Source of the DNA: a virus
DNA length: 40,645 bases
Virus record (IMG/VR): IMGVR_UViG_3300044699_000087
Location: 1-40,645 of that record
Strand: one strand, 5' to 3'
Part shown: in pieces, positions 2,479 through 8,670 of the stretch
How positions within the stretch are numbered: the first letter of the stretch is position 1
Layout: each line of letters begins with the position of its first letter
Translations under genes and position numbers: made by a program
Notes under the pieces: model-generated
Database searches by the model: none
Told to the model about the DNA's origin: nothing
The model's input: the letters and a program-made list of their open reading frames with translations, nothing else

Positions 2479-4296
2479 TCAGTTCCAGCCGAGGCCGCGT
2501 TGGACGTCGCCGCCGTGCTCGAAACGGATGCGGTCCCGGAAGTAGTCGAACAAGGCCCGGTCGAGGGGCGAGCCGTCGCCCTGGTAGACGAGCGCCGGGG
2601 CGGCGCCGGCGCCCCCGGCGAGCATCCGTTCGGTGTCGGGGTTCGAGTGCACCCGGGACCCGGGCGCCAGGTCGACGATCTCGGGGCCGTGCTCACCGAC
2701 GAGGACCCGGTTGGAACGGGGTCCGCCCTGCGCGGCGGTCGAGTAGTCCGGGGTGATCCCACCGGACGCGAGGCCGAGAAAGCTGGCGCCGGGGAGGCTG
2801 CGGCCGATGAGCCGGGCGAACGCCTGGATCGTCACGTTCGCGGTCGACCCGTCCAGCTCGCGCAGCCGGTTCCCCGCCGAGATGATCTTGCCCGACGCGT
2901 TGTCCCGGGCTTCCAGGCGGGCCGTGCGGGTCCCCTGGATGCGGTTCGCTTCGTCCGCGGCGTTCTCGAACCGGGTGGCCATCCGCCGGGCCTGGCCCTC
3001 GGTGATCGACCCCTGCTGACGCCAGCGCTCCAGGGCGTTGCGGGCGTTCGACAACGACGCCGGGTGCTCCTTGATCTGCGCCGTCAGGTCCGCTTCCGCC
3101 GACTCCAGGTCCGCGGCAGACATGACCGCGTCGTCCTGCGCGTCGTTGAGGGTCCGCAGCGCGTCGGCCGCCTCCGAGCTGCCCTCGCCGTGCTTGTTCA
3201 CGGCGTCGTGGTAGGCGAGGACCGCCTCGTTCACAGCAGCTTGCGAGTCACGCTGCTGGTTCATGGCGTCGAGCATCCCGAACAGCGGATCCGTGGCCGC
3301 CCTCACCGCGTCGTTGACCCCGCGCACGGCGTCGGCCTCGGCCTTCATGGCCTCGGTCATGCGGTCCGTCGCCGTGACGCCCGCTTCCTCGGCGGCGTTC
3401 TTGTTGTCCAGCTCCGACCGGTACTCGGCGATCTGGTCCTCGGACACCCCGGCGTTCGCGGCCAGCTCCAGGAACTGTTCGGCCTGGTCGTCACCCGCCG
3501 CTTTCGCCCGCTCCCACAGCTCATCGAGCTTCCCGATCGACGCCATCAACCCGATCAGCGACTCGTTCGCCGGGGTCGACGCGTACGTCATGCCCTGGAG
3601 CTTGTTGGACAGGTCGTCGAGGTTCTCCGACGTCTCCTGCTCGTACTGCTGGTCGAGCGCCATCAACCCCGCGGTCAGCGCTCCGATGCCGATCACAGCA
3701 GCGCCGCCGATGGCGACGTTCTTCATCCCGCCCATCTTCTCGGTGAGCCCCGACAGGCTTTTACCGAGGGACTGCACCTGCGGGATGATGAAGTTGTACA
3801 TGGACGACCCGAGGTCGGAGAACACCATCGCCTGTTCTTGGGCGGTGAGCTTGTTCCACTTCATGGCGTCGGTCAGACCGGCGAACCCGTCCGCAGCGCC
3901 CATGGCCCGGGTGTCGAGCTCGTCGAAGCGGTCGCCGACGCCGCCGATGCCTGTCCCGTACTCCTCGACCTTGCGTCCGCCGTCGCCGATGAACTTGTCG
4001 AGCCGGCGGGTCGTATCGCCCATCTGGTCGAGCTCGGCCTCGGCGCGCTGGGCGTCCTTGGCCATGTCGCGGAACCCGCCGCCGGCTTTGGACACGGCCG
4101 AGTCGAGCGACGACATCTGCCGGTCGATGTCCTTGGCCGAGTCGCCCATGTCGTCGAGGCCCTTGGATGCCTGGTCGAGGGGCCGCTCTGCGGCCTTGGC
4201 GGCTTTGCCGATCTTCTCGAGGCCGTCGGCGGCCGAGCCGATGGCATCGCCGGAGTCGTCCTCACCGGTGATGCGGATCTGGATCGGGTCAACCAT
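2479..4296 (-). CDS. Tape measure protein
   Basis: This is an intact 605-residue protein rich in Ala, Asp and Glu, with heptad-like helical stretches from about residue 15 to 130 and again through the middle. There is a short hydrophobic segment near residues 195-215 (VAIGGAAVIGIGALTAGLMA). Such proteins fill the tail lumen and set tail length; at roughly 1.5 angstrom per residue the tail would be about 90 nm. The ATG at 4296 overlaps the end of the frameshifted chaperone by 8 nt, the classic order chaperone then tape measure. The C-terminal region ends in GERMLAGGAGAAP-like linkers and an EHGGDVQRGLG tail. It is fairly short for the family but shows no internal break. Confidence 0.9.
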   Translation of the reverse strand: MVDPIQIRITGEDDSGDAIGSAADGLEKIGKAAKAAERPLDQASKGLDDMGDSAKDIDRQMSSLDSAVSKAGGGFRDMAKDAQRAEAELDQMGDTTRRLDKFIGDGGRKVEEYGTGIGGVGDRFDELDTRAMGAADGFAGLTDAMKWNKLTAQEQAMVFSDLGSSMYNFIIPQVQSLGKSLSGLTEKMGGMKNVAIGGAAVIGIGALTAGLMALDQQYEQETSENLDDLSNKLQGMTYASTPANESLIGLMASIGKLDELWERAKAAGDDQAEQFLELAANAGVSEDQIAEYRSELDNKNAAEEAGVTATDRMTEAMKAEADAVRGVNDAVRAATDPLFGMLDAMNQQRDSQAAVNEAVLAYHDAVNKHGEGSSEAADALRTLNDAQDDAVMSAADLESAEADLTAQIKEHPASLSNARNALERWRQQGSITEGQARRMATRFENAADEANRIQGTRTARLEARDNASGKIISAGNRLRELDGSTANVTIQAFARLIGRSLPGASFLGLASGGITPDYSTAAQGGPRSNRVLVGEHGPEIVDLAPGSRVHSNPDTERMLAGGAGAAPALVYQGDGSPLDRALFDYFRDRIRFEHGGDVQRGLGWN

Positions 4297-4863
4297 GGAG
4301 CGCCACCACCTCGGCGTCTGCGTCGGCGCCTTCCCGCGGGGCCTTCATCGCCTGCTCCAACGCCAGGAGGCGCACCAGCCCGGTCCCCTCGGCCCGCAGA
4401 TCGCACAGCTTGTACTGGGGGAAGGCGCGGAGCAGGTTCAGAAGCATGAGCGGTCCGGTCAGCTCGCCAGGGGCGTCGCCGGGATCTCCGCCAGAGGCGC
4501 GCCACCGTTCGATGGCTGCTCGAAAGGGTCGGCAAGACCGACCTGCGCGTCGATCCACGCGTCGATGATGTGCCGGCGTAGCCGCCACGGCAGGCCGTTG
4601 AGGCTCTCGGCCGTGACCGGGAGGGGTTCGGGCGGGTCGGAGCGGGGCACGTCGAGGTTCCATGACGCGATGGACGCGGCGACGATCTCGTTCATCTCGC
4701 CGACGTGGACCATGTTCTCGTCGTTGAGCAGGTTGCGGCCCCCGGACATGAGCCACAGCACTCGGGTGTAGGCGCCGATGTCGACCTCGCGGGCGGTCAC
4801 CTCGAGCTCGTCGAGCTTGGGGTGGTTGAACACGAGGTCGACGGTGTCGTCGTAGGCGACCAT
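4289..4863 (-). CDS. Tail assembly chaperone, -1 frameshift (GT-like) product
   Basis: Slipping -1 at the heptamer at 4522-4528 joins the first ~112 residues of the short chaperone to a second open frame. The fusion reads ADPF then RAAIERWRASGG and ends in EVVALHG at 4289, about 191 residues. The second frame has no stop over the overlap and encodes a plausible helical T-like domain (LMLLNLLRAFPQYKL). The last codons overlap the tape measure start. Lambda and most siphophages make such a G/GT pair, with the T part contacting the tape measure. Unlike the many homopolymer breaks elsewhere, the short frame here has a proper ending and the shift site fits the X-XXY-YYZ rule. Confidence 0.75.
4459..4863 (-). 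CDS. Tail assembly chaperone, short (G-like) product
   Basis: This 134-residue protein is encoded between the major tail proteins and the tape measure, where lambda G-type chaperones lie. These bind the tape measure and help polymerise the tail tube, and are not normally in the virion. The ATG at 4863 overlaps the stop of a small upstream ORF (TGATG). The sequence is acidic and unlike any enzyme, as usual for the family. A consensus slippery heptamer, CCCTTTC, lies in the zero frame at codons for Asp-Pro-Phe about 24 codons before the stop, so a share of ribosomes should make the longer product annotated separately. Confidence 0.8.
   Translation of the reverse strand: MVAYDDTVDLVFNHPKLDELEVTAREVDIGAYTRVLWLMSGGRNLLNDENMVHVGEMNEIVAASIASWNLDVPRSDPPEPLPVTAESLNGLPWRLRRHIIDAWIDAQVGLADPFEQPSNGGAPLAEIPATPLAS
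4522..4528 (-). promoter_or_regulatory. Programmed -1 ribosomal frameshift site (CCCTTTC)
   Basis: On the coding strand the zero-frame codons are GAC CCT TTC, giving heptamer C-CCT-TTC (XXX=CCC, YYY=TTT, Z=C). It lies inside the overlap of the two chaperone frames and moves ribosomes into the frame that is open to 4289. GC-rich sequence follows, which could form a stimulatory structure, but I did not fold it. Confidence 0.75.
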
Positions 4864-4993: not shown

Positions 4994-5414
4994 TCAGGTC
5001 CAGGCGGGGACGAGGCCGTTCGCGAGCACGAGCGGGGCGGTCCACGTGAACTCACCCGACTGGGCCCGGGTCAGGGCGTAGTCGGTCGGGAAGAACGTGC
5101 ACGCAGGCGACGAGAACAGGGTCTGACCGGAGATGGCCAGCACCACCGCTCGGGCCACGCTGGTCGACGGGACGGTCTTGAACACGTCGTGCGCCAGGTT
5201 GGAGCCGTCGTCGAACACCCCGGCGGGGGGTGACGGTGGCGTCGGCGAGCAACAGCAGCCTCGCCATCGCCGACTGGCTCAGCGCAGTCACGTCCTGCAC
5301 CCCACGCGGCGTCGCGAACGACAGGGACGTGGTGGACGAGCGGATGTCGCGGGCGGATGCGCTGCTGTCTGCCACGGTGAACGTCGTCCACCCGAGGCCA
5401 GATTCAACGGCCAT
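4994..5414 (-). CDS. Short tail protein, paralogue of the major tail protein
   Basis: This is about 139 residues after removing one G from the run of six near 5220. The N-terminus MAVESGLGWTTF and the internal GVQDVTALSQSAMARL and YALTRAQSGEFTW segments match MAVETGLGQGLW, AMQDITGIDLSATRRL and FTRTQAGEFTF of the larger tail protein at 5989-6754. Shared start, shared core and shared ending motif indicate a duplicated tail-tube fold. A good Shine-Dalgarno (AAGGAG, 6 nt) precedes the ATG. It may be a second tube subunit, a tube-initiator ring or a terminator-like ring. The break makes the exact protein uncertain. Confidence 0.7.
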
Positions 5415-5438
5415 GTCGTCTCCTTCGGTTGGTCAACG

Positions 5439-5989
5439 TCAGCCCTGCGCTCGGTGCAGGGCGTCGAGGTGTTCTGCGGACTCTTCGATCCACAGCTCGG
5501 GGTTGTCGTGGGTGCGGATGGGTGTGCGGCGCGGGTTCCCGCGGATGTCGCCGTCCCGCACGACGTAGAGCTCGGGCCGGTCGAGGGTGCGGCGGTGCTC
5601 GGTGAAGCACGGTGTGCCGGCGGGGAACGTGAACGTCTCGGCGCCGGACCCGTCGACGGTGAGCGTGTACCGGCCGTGGACGCGGGCGGCGACGACCGGC
5701 GACAGGCGGGCGCCCGCGGGGCGGCAGAGGGTGCGGATGCGGCGCGCCCACGCCCGGCCGGTGGCCGTGTGGTCGCAGACGACGTTGAACCCGCCCCGCC
5801 AGGCGGCGCAGTCGACCTCGGCGCACGTGGCGGGGTGGTGTGGGTCGAGCGGGGCGCGGCGATCTGGAACGTGGTGGTGGCCGACGCGGGGAGGTTGGCG
5901 CCGAGACCCATCGTCGAGAACGAGGCGATGGCGTTGCGGCGGATGGGGCCGGTCATCCCGGCGAGCGGGTCGAGGGTCCGGGGGTCCAT
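5439..5989 (-). CDS. Conserved phage protein between major tail protein genes
   Basis: This is about 183 residues if one base is added near 5850. The ATG overlaps the major tail protein stop (TGATG). Recognisable parts are MDPRTLDPLAGMTGPIRR at the start, a middle with four Cys (CAEVDCAAW, VVCDHTATG) and a C-terminal ELYVVRDGDIRGNPRRTPIR block followed by a short acidic tail. I recall similar proteins of unknown function in actinophages at this position. It may be a minor tail-tube or assembly protein, but no enzymatic motif is visible. Confidence 0.7.
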
Positions 5990-6754
5990 CACGGGGCCGT
6001 GAACTCGGTGGCGGTGAGGTTGCGGTTGAACACGACACCGATCACGGCGTTGGAGAACGTGCCGGTGGTGTTGACCTTGAGGTAGCGCCTGACGGTGGCG
6101 GTGCGGCCACCTTCGAGGCGTTCGGTTGCCGATGGCGGTCTTGGCGGTGAACGCCCCGCCGGTGAGGTTCGCGAACGCCGAGTTGTCCGCCGAGTCCTGG
6201 ATGGTGACGGTGACGCTGGTCCCGGTGAACGCGAAGACGTGCAGCCAGGCCTGCCATCGAACGCGGTGGAGGCGCCGCCGTCCTGGTTGAAGTCGACGCC
6301 GGTGGCGGGCGCGGTAGCGGTCGAGTCGGTTGCGCTTCCCGGCGGTGAGGAGGCGCCCCCACTCGACGCCGTAGCCGTTCCCCGACCAGTTCGACGCGAA
6401 CGTGAACTCGCCGGCCTGGGTGCGGGTGAACGGCATGTCGGTCTGCCGGAACCGCCCGGCCCACGCCGGGTCACCGAGGGTCGACCCTGTGATGAGGGCG
6501 ACGTCGTAGTTGAGGACCTGGGAGAAGGCGTTGGCCTTCATGCCCTGGAACGACCCGCCGGTGACGTCGTTGAAGAACTGGTTTATCGTCACCGACCCGT
6601 CGCGCTGGAGCGGCAGGCGGCGAGTCGCCGACAGGTCGATCCCGGTGATGTCCTGCATGGCGGTCGGGCTGTTCATCGACCACGACCCGGTGTCGCCCGA
6701 GCAGTCGATCCCGGCGATCCACAGGCCCTGGCCGAGCCCGGTTTCTACAGCCAT
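5989..6754 (-). CDS. Major tail protein
   Basis: This is about 254 residues once three one-base indels (near 6339, 6257 and 6116) are repaired. It should form the tail tube. It follows the tail-terminator-like gene and precedes the tail chaperones, the usual order. The first half contains AMQDITGIDLSATRRLPL, DGSVTINQFFND and FTRTQAGEFTFASNWSGN; the second half, TGVDFNQDGGAS through TVTIQDSADNSAFANLTGGAF to YLKVNTTGTFSNAVIGVVFNR, resembles an added Ig-like or beta-sandwich domain. A GGAGAG ribosome binding site lies 8 nt before the ATG. The upstream gene ends in the same TGATG. The duplicated short form lies two genes downstream. Confidence 0.75.
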
Positions 6755-7236
6755 CAGGCACTCTCCGTGAGGACGTGGTTGATGATGAGGGGGACGGTGA
6801 TGAGCACGGCCCGGTACTTCTTGCCGTCGTGGTCGAGGTATCCGAACGGGGCGACCATGGGGGTGCCGGCCATCCCGCGGATGTCGACGGAGCGGACGTC
6901 GATGCCGACCGTGTCGACGTCGGTGAGGGAGAACCCGCCCGCGTACCCGGCCATCACGGACACCGCGGCGGACCCGAGCGTCGGGTCGATGTCGTCTTCG
7001 GGGTCGTCGAGCATCGGCATCTGCAACCGCACGTTGAACGTCACCTTGAGCGACGTCGAGGCGAGCCCGGACGTGGTGGGTGCGATCTCATGGAGGAACA
7101 CCGAGCACGTGAGCCCGCGGCCGGGGGCGTTCTTGGGTTCGTGGCCGAGGGTGTTGCGGAACAGGCCGAGGCGCTGCGGGACGGCCCGCACGACAGCCTG
7201 GAGGGCCTGGAACTGGGCGACGGTGAGTCCGCTCAC
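6754..7236 (-). CDS. Probable tail terminator protein
   Basis: This intact 160-residue protein starts at a GTG that overlaps the previous stop by 4 nt (GTGA). It lies immediately upstream of the major tail protein, where lambda U/HK97 gp10-type terminators or tail-completion proteins lie; these cap the tube and join it to the head. Visible segments are LTVAQFQALQAVVRAVPQRLG, LTCSVFLHEIAPTTS and a C-terminal DGKKYRAVLITVPLIINHVL strand region. The assignment is mainly positional; no signature motif is decisive. Confidence 0.55.
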   Translation of the reverse strand: MSGLTVAQFQALQAVVRAVPQRLGLFRNTLGHEPKNAPGRGLTCSVFLHEIAPTTSGLASTSLKVTFNVRLQMPMLDDPEDDIDPTLGSAAVSVMAGYAGGFSLTDVDTVGIDVRSVDIRGMAGTPMVAPFGYLDHDGKKYRAVLITVPLIINHVLTESA

Positions 7237-7624
7237 CCGGTGATCCTCCGCACCGCGTCGGCGACCTCGCGCTCGGCTATCACCGGCGCTTCGCGCTGCA
7301 ACGCCTGCGCGGCACGCCGGAACGAGCTGTAGCCCTTGAACCGGGTCGTGCGGTTGCGGGACCCGACGCCTTCGAGCCACGCCCCGTAGATCACACCGCC
7401 GTCGTTGACCGTCCACGCCGTCCCGGCCGGCTCAGAGCGGATGCGGGACTGGTAGAACCCCCGTCGGGTTCCGCAACGACGACCGCAGGTTTGTCCTGGA
7501 CGATGTCCTCACCGCGGCGGGCGATCAGCTCGAGCGCACGGTCCATGCCCATGGGGATGCCGTCGCCGAGGTTGCGGAGCATGTCGAGCCCGCCGGTGGC
7601 GTCCACTTCGATGGACAGGCCCAT
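7233..7624 (-). CDS. Head-tail connector / neck protein (HK97 gp10-like)
   Basis: This is about 130 residues after adding one G to the run of five near 7460. The start MGLSIEVDATGGLDMLRNLG and the middle GMDRALELIARRGEDIV are helical and precede a strand-rich part (FYQSRIRSEPAGTAWTV, NDGGVIYGAWLEGVG). That pattern, with the R-RTTRFKGYSSFRRA ending, is common in siphophage neck or minor head-tail proteins encoded after the adaptor. It overlaps both neighbours by ATGA/GTGA. The role in joining head and tail is inferred from position and general resemblance. Confidence 0.6.
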
Positions 7625-8670
7625 CACACGGCCCCGATCCGGTTGCGTCCGTGCGCCGTCCAGCACAGGTCACGCAGAGCGGTGAGCGCCCGTCCCGCGG
7701 CTTCGCGCATCGCTTCGCCCTCGCCGACGGTGCGGGCGTACGACGCCTCTTCCTGGGCGACCTGGACCTGCGCCTCGGCGATCGCCAGCGACTCGATGAG
7801 CTGCGGGGCCCGCCATACCGTCAGCGCGGTGGCCGTGTTGTGGGCGGCGGCGGTGGTCCCGTTGGCGCCCCGCTCGACCGTCAGGGTGCGGGAGGCGTAG
7901 ATGTCGGCGCCGGAGGTGTGCTCGGCGAGGGTGGACCCGTTCCAGGCCCGCTGCACGACGCCGTTGTTCCCGGCGATCCCGACCAGGAGCATCTCTTCGG
8001 CGTCGATGAGGATCGACTCGCCCACGTTGAACGCCACACCCGACGTCAGGTTGACCAGCTGGGCGGAGGGGAGGTCGTCGAGGTTGGCGCCGAGGTTCTG
8101 GCCCGAGTCGAGCCAGCCGCGGGCGGTGACGATCATCCGTTCGGACTCGCACACCAGCAGCGAACCGACGCCCATCTTCGAGCCGTCGGTGACGTCCACG
8201 CCGGTCTCGGAGCTGTCGAGGGCTTCAGCGAGGGCGCCGGCGGGCCGCTGGTCGTCCGCGTAGCCCCACAGGCCGGTGAGGGCGACGTTGCGCTGCCAGC
8301 CGGTGGCGCCGCCGTAGGAGGCGTCGGTGTCGAAGTCGGTGTTGACCGACACGAACGGCGGGCCGTCGTTGACCGGTTCGAGCAGCAGATCGGCGACCGT
8401 CAGCGAGTCGCCGCCTGTGGTGGCGGTGGTGAGCGAGATGAGGCCCTGGTTGTCGAGCCACAGGCGCCCGGGGTCGGCGTGGGAGCGGTTCGGGAAGTCG
8501 AAGTAGCGGGTGTCGACCCTGGGGTCGATGTGCGCCCAGTGGAGGAACCCGTCGACGGTCTCGCAGGCGGACAGGACGGCCCGGTCGATCTGCTCGTCGT
8601 CACGCGACGTGGCCTTTGAATCGAGAGCCGTTTTGACGGCTTCCCGTGTGCAGTATCCCGGTCGTCCCAT
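7624..8670 (-). CDS. Head-tail adaptor protein
   Basis: This intact 348-residue protein lies between the capsid accessory genes and the neck protein. The N-terminal third (YCTREAVKTALDSKATSRDDEQI) is typical of gp6/gp15-type adaptors, which are helical and bind the portal ring. The middle is beta-rich (GVGSLLVCESERMIVTARGW, NVGESILIDAEEMLLVGIAG), as in long actinophage adaptors. The C-terminus returns to helix (LAIAEAQVQVAQEEASYARTV). The ATG has GAGGGA directly before it, and a gap of 91 bases without an obvious gene separates it from the small gene upstream. Confidence 0.7.
   Translation of the reverse strand: MGRPGYCTREAVKTALDSKATSRDDEQIDRAVLSACETVDGFLHWAHIDPRVDTRYFDFPNRSHADPGRLWLDNQGLISLTTATTGGDSLTVADLLLEPVNDGPPFVSVNTDFDTDASYGGATGWQRNVALTGLWGYADDQRPAGALAEALDSSETGVDVTDGSKMGVGSLLVCESERMIVTARGWLDSGQNLGANLDDLPSAQLVNLTSGVAFNVGESILIDAEEMLLVGIAGNNGVVQRAWNGSTLAEHTSGADIYASRTLTVERGANGTTAAAHNTATALTVWRAPQLIESLAIAEAQVQVAQEEASYARTVGEGEAMREAAGRALTALRDLCWTAHGRNRIGAV

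Follow-up and report, generated by a model that had tools for sequence, protein, structure and literature searches.

In the published accounts we draw on, the tail tubes of phages SPP1, R4C, T5 and P74-26 are each made from one gene, and several variations on this scheme have been described. SPP1 produces a short tube protein, gp17.1, and the longer gp17.1*, which has a C-terminal domain in addition, both reported as the products of a single gene and a translational frameshift and having identical tube domains, and in P74-26 and T5 the tube domain is duplicated, with the copies fused in one chain that in P74-26 forms trimeric rings (PMC10034513, PMC8718954). Tube-fold proteins apart from the main tube protein, such as Alg5 and Alg7, have been described in contractile systems (PMC8894135). 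The gene pair described here, which we call long and short, shares with SPP1 a short tube protein accompanied by a longer one that has a C-terminal domain, and with P74-26 and T5 the duplication of the tube domain. It differs from SPP1 in consisting of two genes whose tube domains have diverged, from P74-26 and T5 in keeping the copies on separate genes, and from Alg5 and Alg7, which are parts of contractile systems, in coming from siphovirus-like phages and prophages.

A layout with two major tail genes is already known. In January 2026, cluster DJ Gordonia phages were reported to carry two such genes one gene apart, their function being left open in that account (PMC12859696); in FortCran, these are genes 22 and 24, with one gene between them and the first the longer, and the DJ pair is 43% identical. 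The same layout is annotated in Chikenjars, and three genes are annotated as major tail protein in Camille. Two major tail proteins have also been noted in Damascus, as a feature common to clusters AM, AU, AW, BI, CC and DJ (PMC11080557). The locus studied here has the same arrangement as cluster DJ, but the middle gene of the FortCran type weakly resembles a chaperone, whereas the gene between long and short, which we call MID, does not look like it; and horizontal acquisition is suggested for DJ in that report, while our data point to an ancient split and a coevolving pair. No sequence link to the tail pairs of DJ and EL phages was found by hmmsearch or hhalign with the Chikenjars and Camille proteins as single sequences, and the two-gene layout may therefore have more than one origin. 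Direct homologues of long and short are present in Streptomyces phage Dagobah (HUN42_00018 and HUN42_00020 of MT711977), in the same order and with one gene between them. This phage, described as a siphovirus by electron microscopy, was the only match among 50,697 phage records, with many more matches in viral contigs, and its record annotates both genes only as hypothetical proteins; the accounts we draw on note neither a tube role nor a pairing. Our literature searches for paralogous, heteromeric or duplicated tail tubes made as two separate subunits found no paper; as far as these searches show, what is new here is the family itself, how strictly its two members are paired, how old their split is and their coevolution at the level of residues.

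The window analysed here is a virus record of 40,645 bases, in which the tail genes follow one another on the minus strand. The run begins with the connector (7624-8670) and a gp10-like gene (7240-7666), followed by a putative tail terminator (6754-7248), placed by synteny with Dagobah HUN42_00017 and with locus L002, the long gene (5989-6754), MID (5439-5990), the short gene (4994-5414), a putative tail assembly chaperone named from its position (4459-4863) and the tape measure gene (2479-4296), which matches the tail length tape measure family phrog_167 with an E value of 3.7e-8. The long gene, encoding a tube domain of about 136 residues and a C-terminal jellyroll, starts with the ATG at 6754 and ends with the stop of its last piece at 5989-5991; the short gene, with a single tube domain, runs from the ATG at 5414 to 4994. 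In Dagobah (L001, 10606-11016) the gp10-like gene comes after short; in the window, and wherever else it was found, it comes before the terminator. Several tail genes between about 5000 and 8700, including long, MID and short (the last with one break), are broken in frame in the window and intact in relatives, and these breaks therefore look like sequence errors of the record. The window's own pieces of long, short, putative terminator and putative chaperone matched no family in PHROGs or Pfam.

Both genes sit where an earlier note on this sequence had placed them, and the likenesses that it had read from the window are there: the MAVE-GLG start (MAVETGLG in long, MAVESGLG in short), a shared core (MQDITGIDLSATRRL / VQDVTALSQSAMARL) and the motif TRxQxGEFT (TRTQAGEFT in long, TRAQSGEFT in short). 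The motif had been taken for an ending, but it closes neither protein: about 20 residues come after it in short, and in long a whole C-terminal domain, some 110-120 residues in length. The genes had also been counted as two genes apart, and a single gene (5990-5439) separates them. The proposed paralogy gains clear support from relatives: a profile built from 34 shorts and one from 32 longs agree over the whole tube domain with an E value of 1.3e-21 (99.4% probability, 33% identity), a likeness beyond chance, and in the window alone, the latter half of short matches the long gene at 6392-6523 (E 3.9e-4). Identity between the long and short tube domains is 39% over 82 homologous columns. In a tree of 232 pairs, long and short are split with support 1.0 and 463 of the 464 tips are in place, the odd one being a 'short' row of locus L150 that is in truth that locus's own long gene. 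Given this split, the duplication is older than the sampled group. Over the same phage pairs, short is the better conserved, with a mean identity of 62.5% vs 50.6% for the long tube domain.

The arrangement of the pair is nearly constant. We counted 411 of the 415 loci, leaving out two window loci, Camille and Chikenjars; both genes are present in 372 of them, always with long first, and these overlapping loci represent 301 distinct protein pairs. The gap between long and short ranges from 15 to 2999 bases, with a median of about 500. Among the 39 loci with one gene, 32 with short only and 6 with long only end, at a contig edge, before the possible place of the partner, taking gaps of up to 3 kb; the one real doubt is L342, with a short gene and no long in the 4.3 kb available upstream. 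To judge from these loci, the pair is an old, nearly invariant module. One subgroup (L020, L052, L058, L059 and L342) has 2-3 kb of other genes between long and MID/short. A profile of MID matches in 392 of the 411 loci; it is absent in L108, L109, L348 and L369, and Gordonia and Microbacterium phages (L207, 11369-11935; L085, 11808-12374) have a protein other than MID in the middle. MID has conserved residues C35, C40, C93 and H99 and a raised coupling to both tube proteins, and the members tried gave no PHROG, Pfam or NCBIfam match. The hosts identified from genome contigs (41 loci) are mostly Streptomyces and other Actinomycetes, with one Dehalococcoidia bin.

Family profiles agree on a tail role for the relatives. 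The family phrog_10528, named 'major tail protein', is matched by 30 of 34 shorts, and phrog_9522, of the same name, by 24 of 32 longs; 6 of the 32 longs match Pfam Phage_TTP_11, weakly. NCBIfam returned nothing for short or for a plain long relative, and sequence searches of the PDB gave no convincing relative (best E 0.76 and 0.3). Structures were modelled from intact relatives with moderate confidence (mean pLDDT of 70.9 for short and 76.4 for long). The leading structural matches have Z scores of 8.3-10.3 for short and 9.7-10.7 for the long tube domain, and the same solved tubes, those of monocin, SaPI1/80alpha, R4C and the gene transfer agent (GTA), stand near the top for both. The best match of short is the monocin cap region (Z 10.3, rmsd 4.6, 120 residues aligned), with R4C at Z 9.6 (rmsd 3.0, 106 aligned) and lambda gpV at about 8.4; the long tube domain reaches 10.7 with SaPI1/80alpha/monocin and 10.6 with R4C (rmsd 2.9, 120 aligned). 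Foldseek gave weaker results, the best for short again being the monocin cap region (E 7.6e-4), and for long the R4C tube (E 2.9e-3), ranked after several unrelated chains. Neck, distal-tail and tube proteins have this fold in common. In relatives and in the window, both genes lie between the tape measure and the terminator, the latter named by position, which is where major tail proteins are expected. The two proteins are thus predicted to fold as tail-tube subunits, and the common fold on which the earlier note had staked its reading is found, in models of intact relatives rather than of the broken window copies; its duplicated tube protein is backed by sequence, predicted fold and gene position together.

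The C-terminal part of long (window 5989-6316; L002, 4430-5191) is confidently modelled as a jellyroll that resembles capsid decoration proteins. Its nearest structure is a Bbp16-like Bordetella phage entry, 3j4u_H (Z 10.5), followed by a chain of the Carin1 capsid particle (Z 8.7), and 8 of 32 longs match Pfam Bbp16 with E values of 0.1 or better; the domain is like the head-cement proteins of phages. This likeness suggests that decoration domains are exchanged between head and tail. Some longs also matched the Shiga toxin B subunit weakly (Pfam E 0.011, NCBIfam E 0.064 or worse, PHROG 851 E 0.042); these matches, far under the curated cut-offs where such are given and within the jellyroll where a place is given, were taken as chance. 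Ten of the 232 longs span at least 400 residues, and in about ten, one more domain, roughly 200 residues long, lies between the tube domain and the jellyroll (L065, 3960-5342; L063, 3560-4936; L013, 1987-3372; and others). In L065, it matches phrog_5313 (E 2.6e-27), and we presume it to be sugar-binding, with a LamG-like fold. Jellyroll and extra domain would most simply be sited outside the tube, as decorations, with short as the bare tube domain.

Correlated change between the two proteins was analysed in 232 of 361 pairs, with near-duplicates and poorly covered rows removed. The L150 row in this set was wrong, and the main test, a mean-field analysis of the long tube domain against short, was rerun without it on 231 phages (effective number 168). 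The 160-phage tree set is also without this row, the 170-phage set possibly has it, and the 231-phage tree, subset, nearest-relative exchange, codon and reverse-coupling tests were kept as first computed. The top coupling joins long column 111 with short column 114 (L111 and S114 below) with a z score of 14.9, ranking first of 17,955 inter-protein couplings, and the maxima in eight shuffled pairings were 3.2-4.0. L111 and S114 are the homologous hairpin tips in the TRxxxG motif; the tip residue is identical in long and short in 145 of 231 phages, where 19% is expected, and the matched residues are of several kinds (D/D, A/A, Q/Q, E/E and N/N). Three of four subsets, like the full set, rank this coupling first, and the fourth ranks it third; it drops to rank 29 when shorts are swapped between nearest relatives. 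Among 116 nearest-relative pairs, the short tip differs in 35 of the 58 in which the long tip differs vs 18 of the other 58 (Fisher p 0.0027). Joint changes at these sites have p 2e-8 on the 231-phage tree and p 9e-6 on the 160-phage tree, an uncorrected value that alone would fail correction for 17,955 pairs. The TRxQxGEFT shared by the window proteins is this covarying hairpin, and is more than inherited likeness, its variable residue changing in step in both paralogues.

A second coupling, this one between non-homologous sites, ties short 118 to long 9 and long 87. Of 16 changes inferred at S118 on the 160-phage tree, 12 fall on branches with a change at L9 and 12 on branches with a change at L87 (p 3e-11 and 4e-10), and F118 occurs in 1 of 142 phages whose long has D9/R87 vs 40 of 89 without. 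The window's own states match at both couplings: Q/Q at the tip, and Q9/T87 in long with F118 in short. In the reverse direction, from the long hairpin to the matching short surface, nothing comparable was found, which speaks against a symmetric alternation of long and short.

Among 16 gene pairs compared on the 160-phage tree, joint changes at p<1e-3 are most frequent for long-short, with 18.2 per 1000 column pairs vs 4.4-13.5 for the others; at p<1e-5, MID-short nearly equals it (8.45 vs 9.11 per 10,000). Single p values as low as 4e-8 also occur in other gene pairs on this tree; such values therefore exaggerate significance, and only the strongest long-short pairs rise above them. In 170 phages common to all, the top-ten coupling of long-short is 6.57 (3.35 when shuffled), that of the other tail-block gene pairs 3.5-4.6 (3.1-3.7) and that of long's own two domains 4.93, with connector pairs at 5.1-5.2 and their shuffles about as high. 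The couplings L34-S125 and L34-S106, although among the ten strongest, did not hold on the tree, where they rarely change together independently (p 0.8 and 0.2), and were dropped; L48-S5 and L5-S5 were kept outside the argument, their tree p values being only 5e-4 and 1e-4. L108-S111, beside the hairpin tip, has a tree p of 4e-2. Overall identity of long and short correlates weakly across phages (r 0.18), below that of short with most neighbours. Local gene conversion found no support from codons as the origin of the matching tips. In three of four regions, the N terminus being the exception, identical codons at homologous sites exceed the prediction from the phage's own usage by about 5 points, and the hairpin does not stand out, its excess being +5.3 points vs +4.5 and +5.6 in other parts of the tube domain. 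Where the sites are homologous, matched residues might also be due to a common partner or environment instead of contact.

We consider it probable, if well short of certain, that long and short are an ancient obligate pair building one two-component tail tube, in which they are in direct contact, the short hairpin lying on the surface of long and the tips being matched. The basis of this reading is homology, predicted fold, co-conservation, fixed gene order and correlated change, the last of which we take as evidence that the subunits share one tube and touch. Coevolution of this kind is an argument that long and short meet in the particle, as both options raised in the earlier note, tube segments and an initiator ring, would require. 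That they are in physical contact, that both are in the virion and that the jellyroll lies outside the tube is what we infer from these observations. In such a tube, which would be common to a large set of siphovirus-like phages and prophages, the short hairpin (residues 114-118) would be packed on the surface of long near residues 9 and 87, and the tips of the two hairpins would have to match within a phage. One-way coupling would fit a definite junction from short to long that recurs along the tube or occurs once, at a boundary.

A single boundary is what the best-surviving alternative proposes: long would form the whole tube and short one ring of six copies at the tip, or the reverse, in the manner of the initiators of contractile injection systems. 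We hold this to be a serious but clearly less likely reading. The Algoriphagus proteins Alg5 and Alg7, separate tube-fold proteins as described there, connect the tube Alg1 to the spike (PMC8894135), and here too a homologue of the tube protein is encoded by a gene of its own. The one-way coupling, from the short hairpin to the long surface only, suits such a ring, and the order terminator, long, MID, short, chaperone and tape measure would put short nearer the tip if gene order follows structure. Against it, the ribosome-binding site of short is strong, resembling those of long and capsid and unlike those of terminator and tape measure: a match of at least 4 is found in 130 of 138 shorts, 123 of 133 longs and 33 of 40 capsid genes, vs 58 of 118 terminators and 17 of 67 tape measures. 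Shuffled upstream sequence of short also scores high (85 of 138), making this a weak proxy, and the strong sites of both genes lean only weakly towards many copies of both. Codon usage also fails to set short apart, with long not separated from short over 127 loci, a comparison of little power as a proxy for copy number because the low-copy connector scores like the capsid gene.

Free mixing of interchangeable subunits with and without a dispensable outer domain, as in SPP1, is improbable. SPP1 tubes are reported to contain gp17.1 and gp17.1*, the latter with an added C-terminal domain, at 3:1 (PMC7666168), and long is likewise a tube domain with an extra domain; the SPP1 forms, though, have one common tube domain, while those of long and short are 33% identical and never interchange on the tree. 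Least likely is that one of the pair is another structural protein of the same fold, from the neck or a distal ring, with correlated change arising through a partner common to both, for example the tape measure: neck and baseplate entries do occur among the structural matches of both models, and the neighbour MID also has raised coupling to both, but each family bears the name 'major tail protein' in PHROGs, tubes make up most of the nearest solved structures of long and short alike, and the coupling of S118 with L9 and L87 links non-homologous sites.

The two-component tube has a stronger form, which we put forward tentatively as rather less likely than the general reading. Hundreds of siphoviruses would have an obligate heteropolymer tube of long and short or mixed rings, with a one-way interface from the short hairpin to long and with tips kept in step by selection, as an unfused counterpart of the T5 and P74-26 tubes. 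The coupled residues offer exact pairs for mutation. The habit of annotating one major tail protein per phage would miss or mislabel one member of the pair, and in Dagobah both are labelled 'hypothetical'. If a large and hardly studied group of phages does build an obligate tube from two genes, this would alter the picture of tail assembly.
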